Positions 12,111 to 60,257 of a DNA stretch of 60,257 bases are shown piece after piece; the first letter of the stretch is position 1, and the number at the start of each line of letters is the position of its first letter. Position numbers and translations under genes: made by a program. The notes under the pieces are model-generated. The model ran no database searches. It was not told the origin of the DNA and saw nothing but the letters and a program-made list of their open reading frames with translations. Origin of the DNA: a virus; the IMG/VR virus record IMGVR_UViG_3300027759_000010, positions 1 through 60,257 of that record; one strand, written 5' to 3'.

Positions 12111-12139
12111 ATTAGATGATATTAGAAAAGGTATTTATC

Positions 12140-12655
12140 ATGACTACAGTTATTCAGACCCAAGCAATTGACACCGGTATCCTTGATGCAGCAGAGATTG
12201 CATTAGTTGACGGGGTTAGCAAAACCGGTGACTTAATTCAAGGTTACGCCGATGCACTGTGCGCGGTATTCAATCGGCGCGACACTGAGGGTCATACCCT
12301 CGAAGCATGGTACAACCTAGTCGGTGCGGAGCGTAAGGGTATCAAGGCGCGCCGCGCTTCATTTGTTCAACGCATGATTGCACGCGGACATGTTAAGGCT
12401 GGGACTACTGACAAACCCAGTGCAACAGTTGACACCTACTGGCAACGGGTCAAGGAAGCTTCGGGCTATGTGCCAAAAGGCAGGGTTTCCGGTGGCACTG
12501 ACGTAGATGCTAAGACCCTTGCAGAATTGAAGACCATGATTAATCGGATTCTGAAGTCCGAGGAAGACGGCAAAGACTGTAACGCTTCGATGTTCAAAGG
12601 CAACCTGATGGAGGTCTTCGAGGGCTTGGGCGGTGAAGTGGATACGCTCGGATAA
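12140..12655 (+). CDS. First early protein, unknown function
   Basis: 171 aa from ATG 12140, chosen because AAGG lies at suitable spacing; an in-frame ATG at 12116 has no ribosome site. The protein is helical and charged, with GAERKGIKARRASFVQRMIA and a YWQRVKEASGYVPKG segment, and a helical C-terminal part with TLAELKTMINRILKSEEDGK. The basic central region could bind nucleic acid, but no family is recognised. As first gene of the early arm it is a candidate host-takeover or regulatory protein, including as ligand for the palindromic boxes that begin right after it (inference). Confidence 0.8.
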   Translation: MTTVIQTQAIDTGILDAAEIALVDGVSKTGDLIQGYADALCAVFNRRDTEGHTLEAWYNLVGAERKGIKARRASFVQRMIARGHVKAGTTDKPSATVDTYWQRVKEASGYVPKGRVSGGTDVDAKTLAELKTMINRILKSEEDGKDCNASMFKGNLMEVFEGLGGEVDTLG

Positions 12656-12689: not shown

Positions 12690-12702
12690 TAACAAATGTT
12701 AG
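12689..12702. repeat. Palindromic box CTAACA-AA-TGTTAG
   Basis: Exact copy. It lies directly after the GAAA-loop hairpin and 15 bp before the ATG of the 49-aa gene. Confidence 0.85.
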
Positions 12703-12867: not shown

Positions 12868-12886
12868 CCTAATGTTATAAAACTTA

Positions 12887-12909
12887 GCCCGCCTAGTGCG
12901 GGCTTTTTT
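12887..12909 (+). terminator. Intrinsic terminator
   Basis: GCCCGC (12887-12892), loop CTAGT, GCGGGC (12898-12903), then six T. It closes the first short early transcript. The following GCGTCTGTA is repeated after the terminator at 21229. Confidence 0.9.
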
Positions 12910-12919
12910 GCGTCTGTAC

Positions 12920-12936: not shown

Positions 12937-13073
12937 ACCACAATGTTATTTTTAGTCTGGATTTTGTCTTGCACCAGTTCTCTGTGCGGGGGTAGGACAG
13001 CGTACCACAATGTTATTTGTTCTATTGATGGGACAATTTAGGCTTGCACCAGTTCTCTGTGCGGGGGTAGGAC
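12937..13073. repeat. Two tandem composite repeats (about 67-75 bp period)
   Basis: Each unit has ACCACAATGTTATTT (12937-12951 and 13004-13018), then a variable stretch, then an identical 31-bp element (12968-12998 and 13043-13073). The 31-bp element begins CTTGCACCAGTTCTCTGTGC, where GCAC and GTGC can pair, and ends GGGGGTAGGAC. Conservation of the blocks but not the spacers implies function. Confidence 0.85.
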
Positions 13074-13082
13074 TAAGCAAAT

Positions 13083-13096
13083 CTAACAAATGTTAT
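13083..13096. repeat. Palindromic box, one mismatch
   Basis: CTAACAAATGTTAT, last base changed. It lies between the tandem repeats and the iteron cluster. Confidence 0.65.
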
Positions 13097-13122
13097 GTTT
13101 CGGTGTGGCAAAATTTGGCTTT

Positions 13123-13453
13123 GTTACGTTACAAAAATGGAAACGTAACGCACTTTCTTCAATGAAATCAACAACTTAGCCCCTAATGTTACATGTTACG
13201 TTTTTTTGCGAAGTGGCATGGCGGTCAGAAAGGCGGCGCAAGTCAGCAAGTGCAATCTGTACCATGATATAATCTAGGAAAGCCTTATATATAATTCTTA
13301 AAAAAACTTAACATTGTAACTTTACCCGTTTTTTCTCTCGTAACCTGTTGATTTCATTGGACTTTATAATGTTATATGTCAAAACTTTTTCTCGTAACAT
13401 TCTGCAACATTGTCACAAATAAACGTAACACCCCCACACCAGCAGAACGTAAC
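13123..13453. repeat. CGTAAC iteron cluster, candidate origin
   Basis: CGTAAC or its complement GTTACG occurs at 13123, 13144, 13195, 13339, 13393, 13424 and 13448: seven copies in 331 bp, against about 0.16 expected by chance. The first two form GTTACGTT...AACGTAAC, an 8-bp inverted repeat with an 11-nt loop. An AT-rich segment lies in the middle. Confidence 0.6.
13265..13273 (+). promoter_or_regulatory. Possible extended -10 promoter
   Basis: TGATATAAT fits an extended -10 (TGnTATAAT) but no good -35 precedes it. No gene follows before the next promoter, so it may instead be part of the AT-rich unwinding tract. Confidence 0.35.
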
Positions 13454-13483
13454 AATACTGCGCCGATGCACACCCCCAAATAC

Positions 13484-13512
13484 TTGACATATCCATAACT
13501 TTGTGGTATAAT
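13484..13512 (+). promoter_or_regulatory. Near-consensus sigma70 promoter
   Basis: Perfect TTGACA (13484-13489), 17-bp spacer and perfect TATAAT (13507-13512). The whole 29-bp element matches the promoter at 15295 in 25 positions. A palindromic box lies 57 bp beyond the -10. Confidence 0.92.
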
Positions 13513-13569: not shown

Positions 13570-13583
13570 CTAACATTTGTTAG
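13570..13583. repeat. Palindromic box CTAACA-TT-TGTTAG
   Basis: Exact copy, 12 bp upstream of the ATG of the 54-aa gene, within the leader of the 13484 promoter. Confidence 0.85.
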
Positions 13584-15294: not shown

Positions 15295-15323
15295 TTGACA
15301 TACCCATTAAATTGTGGTATAAT
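15295..15323 (+). promoter_or_regulatory. Near-consensus sigma70 promoter
   Basis: Perfect TTGACA (15295-15300), 17-bp spacer, perfect TATAAT (15318-15323). The 29-bp element is a near copy of that at 13484, and the leader also shares a GTGT...GTTAG stretch and a palindromic box. It drives the MoxR/VWA gene block. Confidence 0.92.
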
Positions 15324-30710: not shown

Positions 30711-33563
30711 ATGTCATCTTTCGATCTGCTTGATGCGGTACTGCCACCGGAAGGGCGCTACTGTGTGATAGGGATTGGCAAGTATCCTGACCAACATTTT
30801 GTAGAGACTAAGGAACAGGTTGAAGAGTTAGCGAAGGGGTTTGTTAAACGCAAGATTGACGTGTTCTTTGGATGCGCCAAGTTTGGTTCGTTAGACAACC
30901 GCACCCATGAAAATGCAAAATACTTCCGTGCTCTGTGGATGGACATTGATTGTGGCCCAACCAAAGGTGTACCCGACAAAAAAGGCATTATCAAGGGCTA
31001 TCTCGATCAGCAAACTGGACTCGACGAGTTCAAGAAGTTCTGCATTACGGTCGGCTTACCAAGGCCAATATTAGTTAGCTCCGGCTACGGCATACATGCG
31101 TACTGGCTGCTAGAAGAAACAGTGTCCCGCCGAGAGTGGGAGCCACTAGCCAATAGGCTTCGTGAACTGTGCGTTGAGCAAGGGTTAATTGTGGACTCCT
31201 CAGTCTTTGAGGCTTCACGTGTCCTGCGCATCCCCGGCACATTCAATTTTAAACAGGAAGACCCTAAAGAGGTAACAGTACTAAACGAGTTGACGCCTCG
31301 CATGACATACCAAGAAGTTAAAGACTTGCTTGGTGCGCCTGAACCAAAGGACGATACACCCGATTTCATCCCTCGCTCAATGAGCCCGATGATGGAAGCA
31401 CTCATGGGTAACAAAGTCAAGCGGTTTAAGACGATCATGATGAAGGGTGAGGGCGGGTGCGCTCAACTTAACTACTGCTTTGAAAACCAAAACAGCATCG
31501 AAGAACCGTTATGGCGCTCCGCTCTTTCTATTGCAGCTTTTTGCGTAGACGGAGATAAGGCTGTACATAAACTGTCAGACCAGCACGAGGGCTACGATGC
31601 CGTAGAAGTTGACAACAAGGTTAATAACCTACGTAGCAAAGGTGGCCCACACCACTGCGCGACATTTGCAAAACTCAATCCGCAAGGCTGTGAGGGTTGC
31701 ATCCATAGAGGCAAAATTAAATCGCCCATCATGCTCGGCGTTGAGATTGAAGAGGCCGATGCAGAAGATAACGAATACGCCGTTGAAGATGAAGACGGTG
31801 AGGTTGAAATACAGCACATCCCAGAGTATCCGTTTCCGTTTTTCCGTGGCAAGAAGGGTGGCATTTACATTCGCCCCGAGAGCGAAGACGAAGAGGCCGA
31901 GCCCAAACTTGTTTACGAGCATGACTTTTACGTAGTCAAGCGCATGCGTGACCCCGAGCTTGGCGAGATAGCTTTGTTTCGTTTGCACTTACCGCACGAC
32001 GGTGTCCGAGAGTTCAGCATCCCTACGATGGGTATCTCTTCACCCGATGAGTTGCGCAAACAGTTGGCACACAACGGAGTTGTAGCTCATAAGTCACAGT
32101 ACGAATTACTCGCAAGATACGTTGTTTTCTTTATAAAAAATTTGCAATACATTAAAAAGGCAGAAACCATGAGAACTCAGTTTGGTTGGGTAGAGGGGGA
32201 CAGCAAGTTCATCCTCGGTGATCGAGAGATTACAAAAGACGGAGTGTTTTACAGCCCGCCGTCGAGCGTTACAAAAGATGTTGCCGCAAAACTAATTGTT
32301 AAAGGCACGATGGAGAAGTGGAAAGAAGCGTTCAACATGTACGCTAGAAAGGGGCTCGAACCCCATGCGTTTGCCGCGCTCACAGCGTTTGGCTCACCAC
32401 TGCTGAAGTTCACAGGTCTTGAAGGCGCGATCATCAACGTGATTCACCCTGACTCTGGTTCGGGCAAGTCGACGGCATTGTTTATGTGCAACAGCGTGTA
32501 CGGTCAGCCCAAGGAGTTGACCTCCATGTACAAGGATACGTTCAATGCAAAGATGCACCAGCTTGGTGTGATGAACAACCTGCCCAACACCATCGACGAG
32601 ATTACCAACCTCAGTGGCATGGAGTTCTCTGACTTGGCGTACAGCATTAGCCAAGGCCGTGGCAAAAACAAAATGAACGGCTCAACAAACACTCTGCGTG
32701 TTAACAACACTAGCTGGCAGGGCACGACTTTGTGCTCGGCAAACGCCAGCTTCTACGAAAAGTTAGGTGCGGCAAAGAATACACCCGATGGCGAGTCTAT
32801 GCGTCTGCTCGAGTACAAGATCGAACCTAACAGCGCGATTGGTGTGCAGGAGGGCAAGCAGATGTTTGACCACCAACTGCGTGAGAACTTTGGCCATGCC
32901 GGTGAAATCTACATCCAGTGGCTTGTCAATAACTTGGAAGAAGCAGTAGCCCTGATGCGTAAGATTCAGGCTCGGCTCGATAAAGAAGTACAGTTTAGTC
33001 AGAAGGAGCGTTTCTGGTCGGCTGTATCAGCTTGCAACATAGCTGGTGGTTTGATTGCGTCCCAACTGGAACTGCACGACTACGACATGAAAGCTGTGTA
33101 CGACTGGCTCAAGGGTATGCTTAACGAGATGCGGTTTGAGATCCAAGCACCTAACTCAACACCCGTAACAATCCTTGGTGAGTTCGTTAATGCGCACATC
33201 AATAACGCCCTAGTAGTGAACGGTGAAGTCGATTCTCGTAGCAACCTACAGTCCATGCCTATGCTCGAGCCCCGTGGAGAGCTACTCATACGCTACGAGC
33301 CAGACACTAAGGAATTATTTATTGCGGCCAAGCAATTCAAAGACTTTTGCGTCAAGCAGCAGATCAACTACAAGACTACTCTGAAAGAGTTGGGCAATGC
33401 CAAGATTTATGTGGACGGTGTGAACAAGCGGATGTCCAAGGGCATGAAGGTTGTGTCCCCCGCAGTTCGGGTGCTGAAGTTCGATGCCTCAGCCGCCGAG
33501 TTCTTACAGATGGATACTTTTGCGGTTGCAGATGAAAATAGAGACGGTGTCGTACCAGATTGA
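30711..33563 (+). CDS. Primase-helicase fusion (AEP primase + DUF927-like helicase)
   Basis: 950 aa. N-terminal archaeo-eukaryotic primase: D78-I-D80 (LWMDIDCG) and SGYGIH (124-129). A central zinc or linker region contains CAQLNYC and CEGC-type Cys. The C-terminal helicase has Walker A GSGKST (583-588), Walker B with D629-E630 (NTIDEIT), and the DUF927-like segment around FTGLEGAIINVIHPDSG. One protein would unwind the fork and lay primers for the family A polymerase. No separate initiator is recognised. Confidence 0.92.
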   Translation: MSSFDLLDAVLPPEGRYCVIGIGKYPDQHFVETKEQVEELAKGFVKRKIDVFFGCAKFGSLDNRTHENAKYFRALWMDIDCGPTKGVPDKKGIIKGYLDQQTGLDEFKKFCITVGLPRPILVSSGYGIHAYWLLEETVSRREWEPLANRLRELCVEQGLIVDSSVFEASRVLRIPGTFNFKQEDPKEVTVLNELTPRMTYQEVKDLLGAPEPKDDTPDFIPRSMSPMMEALMGNKVKRFKTIMMKGEGGCAQLNYCFENQNSIEEPLWRSALSIAAFCVDGDKAVHKLSDQHEGYDAVEVDNKVNNLRSKGGPHHCATFAKLNPQGCEGCIHRGKIKSPIMLGVEIEEADAEDNEYAVEDEDGEVEIQHIPEYPFPFFRGKKGGIYIRPESEDEEAEPKLVYEHDFYVVKRMRDPELGEIALFRLHLPHDGVREFSIPTMGISSPDELRKQLAHNGVVAHKSQYELLARYVVFFIKNLQYIKKAETMRTQFGWVEGDSKFILGDREITKDGVFYSPPSSVTKDVAAKLIVKGTMEKWKEAFNMYARKGLEPHAFAALTAFGSPLLKFTGLEGAIINVIHPDSGSGKSTALFMCNSVYGQPKELTSMYKDTFNAKMHQLGVMNNLPNTIDEITNLSGMEFSDLAYSISQGRGKNKMNGSTNTLRVNNTSWQGTTLCSANASFYEKLGAAKNTPDGESMRLLEYKIEPNSAIGVQEGKQMFDHQLRENFGHAGEIYIQWLVNNLEEAVALMRKIQARLDKEVQFSQKERFWSAVSACNIAGGLIASQLELHDYDMKAVYDWLKGMLNEMRFEIQAPNSTPVTILGEFVNAHINNALVVNGEVDSRSNLQSMPMLEPRGELLIRYEPDTKELFIAAKQFKDFCVKQQINYKTTLKELGNAKIYVDGVNKRMSKGMKVVSPAVRVLKFDASAAEFLQMDTFAVADENRDGVVPD

Positions 33564-48622: not shown

Positions 48623-49348
48623 ATGTACGTATACATCTGGAAGACCCTTGAAGGCCAACCGTTCTACGTTGGTTTGACAAAAACTATCCACCGCACTAAC
48701 CCGCGTAACGCTGGGGGACGTAATTGGCTGTGCCGACAAAAATTGGCAGAGCTTGGCGTAGAAAATGTGGTGGTCGAATTTCATACAGTGACCGATATTA
48801 TCAGTGCGCAAGAACTTGAACGCAAGTTAATTACAGAGTACGGGCGTGTGCAATTAAGCAACGGGCCACTCACTAATTTACAAGAAGGCGGCAACGGTGC
48901 ACATGGAATGTCAGCCGCCGGAAAAGAATCTTTACGCCAACACATGCTTGACCCTACGCACCCAATTCGTAGTCCTGAAGCAAGGGCCAAACAACGCGCA
49001 AGGATGAAAGCACCTGATGTCACGGTTTTGTTTAGTGGGGAAAATAACCCATCCAAACGCCCAGAAGTACGCGCTAAGTTAAAAGCAATGTGGACAAATC
49101 CAGAATTTCGTGCAGCACGAATTGCTGAAAGGGTTGGCGTTAAAAAACATTCAGCCCAGTTTAAGGATGCTGCGCGGCAACGCCTACTTGACGTAAATAA
49201 CCCTATGCGGGAGTACCACAAGGTGCTTAATAGCGATCCAACCATAGCCGCAAAACGAGTAGCAACATTACGCAGCCCAGAACAACGCGCTCGGCAATCT
49301 GAAGCAATGAAAGCAAATTGGGCCAAGCGTAAGGCACTCATAGCTTAA
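48623..49348 (+). CDS. GIY-YIG homing endonuclease with NUMOD3 repeats
   Basis: 241 aa on the strand opposite to all its neighbours. YVYI (2-5) and YVG (15-17) form the GIY-YIG core, with a catalytic Glu in AQELERKLITEYGR (about 62-75) and LQEGGNGAHG after it. The rest holds several NUMOD3-type DNA-binding repeats (SPEARAKQRARMKAP; RPEVRAKLKAMW; SPEQRARQSEAMKANW). GGAG precedes the ATG. It is a freestanding mobile gene that inserted between endolysin and hub. Confidence 0.92.
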   Translation: MYVYIWKTLEGQPFYVGLTKTIHRTNPRNAGGRNWLCRQKLAELGVENVVVEFHTVTDIISAQELERKLITEYGRVQLSNGPLTNLQEGGNGAHGMSAAGKESLRQHMLDPTHPIRSPEARAKQRARMKAPDVTVLFSGENNPSKRPEVRAKLKAMWTNPEFRAARIAERVGVKKHSAQFKDAARQRLLDVNNPMREYHKVLNSDPTIAAKRVATLRSPEQRARQSEAMKANWAKRKALIA

Positions 49349-60124: not shown

Positions 60125-60257
60125 TCAGTCCTTGTACCCGCCGCCAGCAGCTTTATAACGTTTAGCCATCAATTGAGCTTTACGGGCCGACCACTCGCCA
60201 GCACCTGTACCCTGCACTGCGGCAGCTTTTACGCTGTTAAAAATACGCTTGCGTAGC
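60125..60257 (-). CDS. 3' part of junction-spanning small basic protein
   Basis: This is the same gene as 1-240 read at the other end of the linearised map. Here 43 codons plus TGA at 60127-60125 are visible, ending AAGGGYKD. The first 127 bases of overlap belong to the terminal repeat. Confidence 0.85.
   Translation of the reverse strand, partial: LRKRIFNSVKAAAVQGTGAGEWSARKAQLMAKRYKAAGGGYKD
60131..60257. repeat. Right copy of 127-bp terminal direct repeat
   Basis: Identical to 1-127. See the left copy; it shows circular closure of the assembly. Confidence 0.97.

Follow-up and report, generated by a model that had tools for sequence, protein, structure and literature searches.

Satellite phage P4 uses a single fused primase-helicase as initiator together with short iterons in both orientations, and it needs a second site, crr. 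The alpha protein of P4 is a helicase-primase fusion (PMC7145576). In the SaPI and SCCmec modules (SaPIbov1 Rep, Cch, Cch2) an initiator helicase of the DUF927/Cch kind works together with a primase on short iterons in non-coding DNA, to which two hexamers are proposed to bind (PMC7581432). Cch is related to SaPIbov1 Rep, and SaPI Rep recognizes the origin iterons with its C-terminal domain (PMC7581432). In lambda ori, R6K gamma and pSC101 the iterons adjoin an AT-rich opening region, and IHF helps opening in R6K and pSC101 (PMC5043065).

The DNA analyzed here, termed the window, comprises all 60,257 nucleotides of a freshwater phage record (IMG/VR IMGVR_UViG_3300027759_000010). A non-coding stretch of about 390 bases in it (13083-13470) carries iterons and two IHF boxes around the most easily melting DNA, and this layout is kept in 24 non-redundant relatives. 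It is therefore very probably the place where replication starts, and an iteron-type origin of bidirectional replication at 13.1-13.5 kb, which the sequence-only reading had put forward as a candidate, is the best explanation of these features (probability about 0.8). The window shares with the SaPI and SCCmec modules the kind of initiator helicase, the cooperation with a primase and the short iterons in non-coding DNA. It differs in that primase and helicase are fused, the iteron is another one, two IHF boxes are present and the origin would serve a whole phage genome. The single fused primase-helicase as proposed initiator and the short iterons in both orientations are reminiscent of P4, but no second CGTAAC cluster that would correspond to crr was seen across the genome. 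As in lambda ori, R6K gamma and pSC101, the iterons adjoin an AT-rich region. Unlike in these systems, they flank the core as two arms, a DnaA box is missing and the proposed initiator belongs to another family.

Iteron cluster and its conservation

All seven CGTAAC/GTTACG words listed in the sequence-only reading are present at their places. In the left arm, iteron 1 (13123-13128, minus strand) and iteron 2 (13144-13149, plus strand) form the 8-bp inverted repeat described earlier, with GTTACGTT at 13123-13130 and AACGTAAC at 13142-13149. Iteron 3 (13195-13200, minus strand) is positioned inside the most conserved block, ATGTTACATGTTACGTTTTTTT (13186-13207, plus strand). The right arm consists of iterons 4 (13339-13344), 5 (13393-13398), 6 (13424-13429) and 7 (13448-13453), all on the plus strand, the first of which is absent from most relatives. 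The expectation of 0.16 words in 331 bp given previously holds as an equal-base value, but rises to 0.29 under a first-order Markov model (13083-13483). None of 20,000 samples drawn from this local model (401 bp) contained seven or more words. When all 6-mers were compared in 350-bp windows throughout the genome, CGTAAC at 13123 ranked first (about -4.4 as the log10 of expected places), and among 8-mer clusters the first rank went to AACGTAAC at 13123 (-7.2). Genome-wide, the hexamer is only mildly enriched, with 47 occurrences versus 27.8 expected.

Relatives were gathered from IMG/VR by two routes. The 179-aa protein neighboring the origin, used as a query, yielded 21 loci, and the exact pattern of the most conserved block was found in 33 IMG/VR stretches; all counts of the layout are based on 24 non-redundant origin regions. 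These regions hold 142 iterons in 10.4 kb of origin DNA, compared with 144 in the 285.6 kb outside. This corresponds to 13.6 iterons per kb in the origin regions and 0.50 per kb elsewhere in the same contigs, a 27-fold difference. Two inverted iteron arms flank a nearly repeat-free gap, which contains no iteron in 23 of the 24 relatives. The left arm usually harbors two to three copies of GTTACG at spacings of 12 and 48 and is followed by about 199 bp free of iterons, and the right arm usually harbors one to four copies of CGTAAC at spacings of about 30 and 24. The window and L013 represent a variant arrangement with equal offsets (left 0, 21 (inverted) and 72; right 216, 270, 301 and 325). 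Conservation of the hexamer in relatives had been set beforehand as a test that could refute the origin proposal; the iterons are kept, and so is the two-armed layout. The conserved iteron approximates AATGTTACG and is thus longer than the hexamer. A conserved AAGTGCAA is also present at 13248-13255 (plus strand).

Candidate melting core, IHF consensus boxes and GC skew

An AT-rich tract that could unwind was a further element of the original proposal. The tract is real and, as a candidate melting core at 13266-13340, represents the least stable DNA of the genome. By nearest-neighbor stacking energies, the stability minima of the genome begin at 13266 for stretches of 60 bp, at 13285 for 100 bp and at 13254 for 150 bp. 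In the 63-kb relative G001, the corresponding region ranks second in instability.

The core is flanked by conserved TTGATT blocks that fit WATCAANNNNTTR, which we take to be the IHF consensus. The left box AATCAACAACTTA (13166-13178, plus strand) matches it perfectly, and the right box TAACCTGTTGATT (13341-13353) shows the perfect consensus on the minus strand. Only four such sites occur in the 60 kb of the window, two of which are these boxes in the origin (13166, plus; 13341, minus). The left box is perfect in 24 of 24 loci and the right one in 23 of 24, with L053 lacking it. Across the 24 loci, the four N positions take 4 forms in the left box and 14 in the right box. Variation is thus confined to the consensus-free positions, as would be expected under selection on the consensus bases. 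Inversion affects the left box in the window and L013 and the right box in several other relatives, which an autonomous site would permit. Both boxes are likely docking sites for IHF, as judged at the level of the consensus.

With the conserved clustered short site, the adjacent AT-rich element and the consensus-level IHF sites, the stretch has the components of an iteron-type origin, except for the DnaA box, which is common at iteron origins of plasmids but not universal. No match to TTWTNCACA was located near the origin of the window, and among the relatives only L034 and L060 have one.

The turning points of the cumulative GC skew are at 11.4 and 33.7 kb, and its minimum is 1.9 kb away from the proposed origin. 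The skew had been suggested as a check. It is compatible with an origin at 13.1-13.5 kb but cannot count as separate evidence, since gene orientation is divided in the same way. As a proof of the origin it was therefore rejected.

Genomic setting

The first 127 bases of the window recur at its end (1-127 and 60131-60257), so that the record forms a closed circle of 60,130 bp; the overlap itself is probably an assembly k-mer overlap. G001 likewise closes into a circle. The block of leftward late genes (portal, TerL, TerS-like) is bounded by a divergent region near 12 kb. The early and replication genes, which encode a MoxR-type ATPase, a VWA protein, PolA, an exonuclease, a SNF2 helicase and the primase-helicase, run rightward to 33.6 kb, where they meet a leftward block. 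The label of the putative TerS is based on gene position and sequence look, without a family match.

To the left of the origin, an intrinsic terminator (12886-12911, plus strand) closes the upstream transcript. To its right follows an early promoter, TTGACA-17-TATAAT with an extended -10 (13484-13512, plus strand), which is a perfect sigma-70 promoter (12/12) and is kept in nearly all relatives but not in L026. Hence, the origin element is situated between transcripts. A second perfect TTGACA-17-TATAAT promoter with an extended -10 was noticed at 15295-15323, upstream of the ATPase gene. It has a palindrome about 70 bp downstream, as does the promoter at 13484.

Left of the origin, the 27-bp element TGCACCAGTTCTCTGTGCGGGGGTAGG occurs in two perfect copies (12970-12996 and 13045-13071, both plus strand). 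All 23 relatives inspected carry one or two copies of its CCAGTTC portion to the left of the origin, and among 20 aligned copies this portion does not vary. The element is possibly a TerS site, a primase start or a promoter. The 179-aa protein (12116-12655, plus strand) always adjoins the origin in this group. Searches of Pfam, PHROG, PDB and folds returned no match for it, and a role as initiator was not supported. Rfam and tRNA scans were empty. A homing-endonuclease-like gene at 48623-49348 is inserted against the direction of its neighbors. Genome bins were also considered as an indication of the host; they proved unusable because TerL relatives are binned under unrelated phyla.

Proposed initiator and mechanism

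The sequence-only reading had recognized no separate initiator, and none was recognized in this analysis either. Its alternative guess, that the primase-helicase might be the binder at this place, gains support from the relationships of this protein, and the binding itself is proposed by analogy. The 950-aa protein (30711-33563, plus strand) combines an AEP primase with a DUF927/Cch-like helicase (PF06048, E 1.7e-30) and is encoded in at least 320 IMG/VR stretches. As a single-sequence query it matched SCCmec Cch (5dgk, E 6e-8) and SaPIbov1 Rep (8tch, E 1e-5), whereas a profile of the family alignment gave no match in the PDB. A predicted model with a mean pLDDT of 54 served only for the top fold matches, which were Cch and SaPIbov1 Rep and also AEP primases. 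In this low-confidence model, residues 860-925 show a winged-helix-like order of elements, and the C-terminus had no sequence match in the PDB. By analogy with these relatives, the primase-helicase is the likeliest initiator, which would bind CGTAAC.

Its gene (30.7-33.6 kb) is 17 kb from the origin (13.1-13.45 kb), which counts against the origin model. In this respect the window differs from the SaPIs, whose origins are located directly downstream of rep. This indicates that SaPI-like initiation need not mean a SaPI-type origin.

Initiation could proceed as follows. The C-terminal domain of the primase-helicase would bind the iterons, with one oligomer per arm, and host IHF would bend the DNA at both boxes and thereby bring the arms together. 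The AT-rich core would then open, and helicases would load onto opposite strands and prime. Both forks, extended by the phage PolA, would run with transcription in either direction and meet near 33.6-33.8 kb, where the gene blocks converge.

Palindromes at early gene starts

A family of palindromes, (C)TAACANNTGTTA(G), is represented by 14 copies between 12.69 and 19.25 kb, mostly at gene ends and starts. One copy, CTAACAAATGTTAT (13083-13096, plus strand), is at the left edge of the proposed origin, and another (13570-13583, plus strand) is among those at start sites of the early region. The others begin at 12690, 12921, 13758, 14499, 14876, 15118, 15392, 16511, 16736, 17965, 18805 and 19248. 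In some of them, the ATG of the palindrome is itself the start codon of the gene. An ATG preceded by a Shine-Dalgarno sequence lies within 25 nt of the end of, or inside, 60 of 141 palindromes, compared with 38 of 320 random places. When single palindromes were folded as RNA, one reached -3.5 kcal/mol (z -2.8) and the others were less clear.

The CTAACAWWTGTTAG palindromes found at the starts of early genes are similar to the iterons, with TGTTA common to both, which had made a shared binder attractive. However, three clade-specific palindrome versions exist among the relatives. Every palindrome copy is CTGACAAATGTCAG in L033, L051 and L056, and the palindromes of L034, L035, L062, L060 and L154 are CTAACAATGTTAG, whereas the iterons stay GTTACG in both clades. 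One protein for iterons and palindromes was consequently rejected, since the sequence or spacing of the palindromes shifts between clades and the iterons are constant. A binder other than that of the iterons is probable for the palindromes. Their concerted and symmetric changes suggest that a trans-acting factor, or else an RNA hairpin, is involved, separate from whatever binds the origin.

In Cluster K mycobacteriophages, the SAS and ESAS, partly inverted repeats of unknown function, are located at translation starts of non-structural genes (PMC3203893). The palindromes of the window are similar in place and can be viewed as a new case of SAS-like repeats. They differ from the 13-bp SAS and the 17-bp inverted repeats in being single, 13-14 bp long and of another sequence, and in changing in concert between clades. 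This separate palindrome family, the pair of IHF boxes and the terminator and promoter bracketing the origin are new with respect to the sequence-only reading.

Alternative explanations and the distribution of modules

Similar arrangements of short repeats with IHF sites also serve other functions. In P1 pac, hexamers in two groups are combined with IHF, and in lambda cosB the R sites are. A packaging site, at which the small terminase would bind the hexamers and IHF would bend the DNA, agrees with the two hexamer groups and IHF boxes, with the TerS-like gene only 1.4 kb away and with the circular record (127-bp overlap), owing to which genome ends are not seen elsewhere. It leaves unexplained, however, why the least stable DNA of the genome is found here and why the element sits between a terminator and the early promoter. 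No CGTAAC cluster was found in the searched stretches of phages with related packaging genes (L028-L031, L064-L069), although these TerL relatives are distant and the test is weak. In addition, IHF boxes around non-coding AT-rich DNA occur in phages whose primase-helicase is related but in which TerS, TerL and portal have no match. A packaging site is accordingly improbable. An operator or enhancer, on which a phage regulator and IHF would control the early promoter at 13484, is slightly easier to accept but still unlikely; an origin could be present at the same time. A distance of 31 bp separates the last iteron from the strong promoter, and the palindromes, which have the TGTTA half-site too, are distributed over this operon. 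Yet about 360 bp lie between the left arm and the promoter, neither the inverted layout nor the melting core is needed for such control, and no repressor was recognized among the genes scanned. The divergence of the palindromes in relatives with unchanged GTTACG iterons also makes one regulator for both unlikely. P1 parS is a centromere of clustered repeats with IHF sites, and repeats of this kind can form centromeres, but it is very improbable that this phage is maintained as a plasmid and uses the region for partition, as neither ParA/ParB nor an integrase or lysogeny gene was found in the gene scans.

The replication origin reading is further informed by phages that share only some of these genes. 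DSL-LC04, HTVC023P, HTVC027P and 023Pt_psg01 have TerL and portal in common with the window, without sharing its primase-helicase. Rhizobium phage RHph_TM27A (MN988461) and Pseudomonas phage Rollin (OR577172) share PolA, the SNF2 helicase and the primase-helicase with the window, but not TerL, TerS or portal. The window thus appears as a mosaic of packaging and virion genes akin to those of HTVC023P-type podophages and DSL-LC04 and replication genes akin to those of RHph_TM27A and Rollin. RHph_TM27A harbors only two IHF consensus sites in 60.9 kb. They are inverted, 318 bp apart and flank the least stable DNA of that genome in a non-coding gap, in which AT-rich repeats but no clear iterons were found. 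Rollin, available as a partial record, has an IHF box between inverted AAAAGGTAGTAAC repeats in AT-rich non-coding DNA, so its iterons differ from those of the window. A published origin for either phage was not found in the literature searched. These two phages, which have the replication genes but not the packaging genes in common with the window, also resemble it in their non-coding regions. The architecture thus follows the replication module, within the limits of a comparison with distant phages, and this speaks against a packaging site. A lone IHF site is not diagnostic of an origin, because in DSL-LC04, too, a gap close to the TerS gene contains one consensus site.

Taken jointly, a tentative reading, with odds a little short of even, is that a fused AEP-primase/SaPIbov1-Rep-like helicase and an origin with inverted arms, an IHF pair and a melting core form a portable replication module that passes between phages whose virion genes are unrelated. 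In the same reading, a second, separate regulator in the freshwater group would mark early gene starts by the concertedly changing palindrome. If the origin model holds, the site at which an abundant, uncultivated group of freshwater phages begins replication would be placed within about 400 bp and a testable initiator named for it. It would also suggest that whole tailed phages use SaPI-style initiation with IHF, and would provide a small cassette of origin plus initiator for replication tests in laboratory hosts.

Two further observations concern related genomes. In RHph_TM27A, EVB29_077 (L166:42248-45331, MN988461) is annotated as a putative integrase, yet it is a homolog of the primase-helicase. 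In L064, five copies of GTACGAAA are clustered near 2518, about 2.5 kb upstream of TerL, the place that the origin occupies in the window; this cluster is possibly an origin with another iteron.
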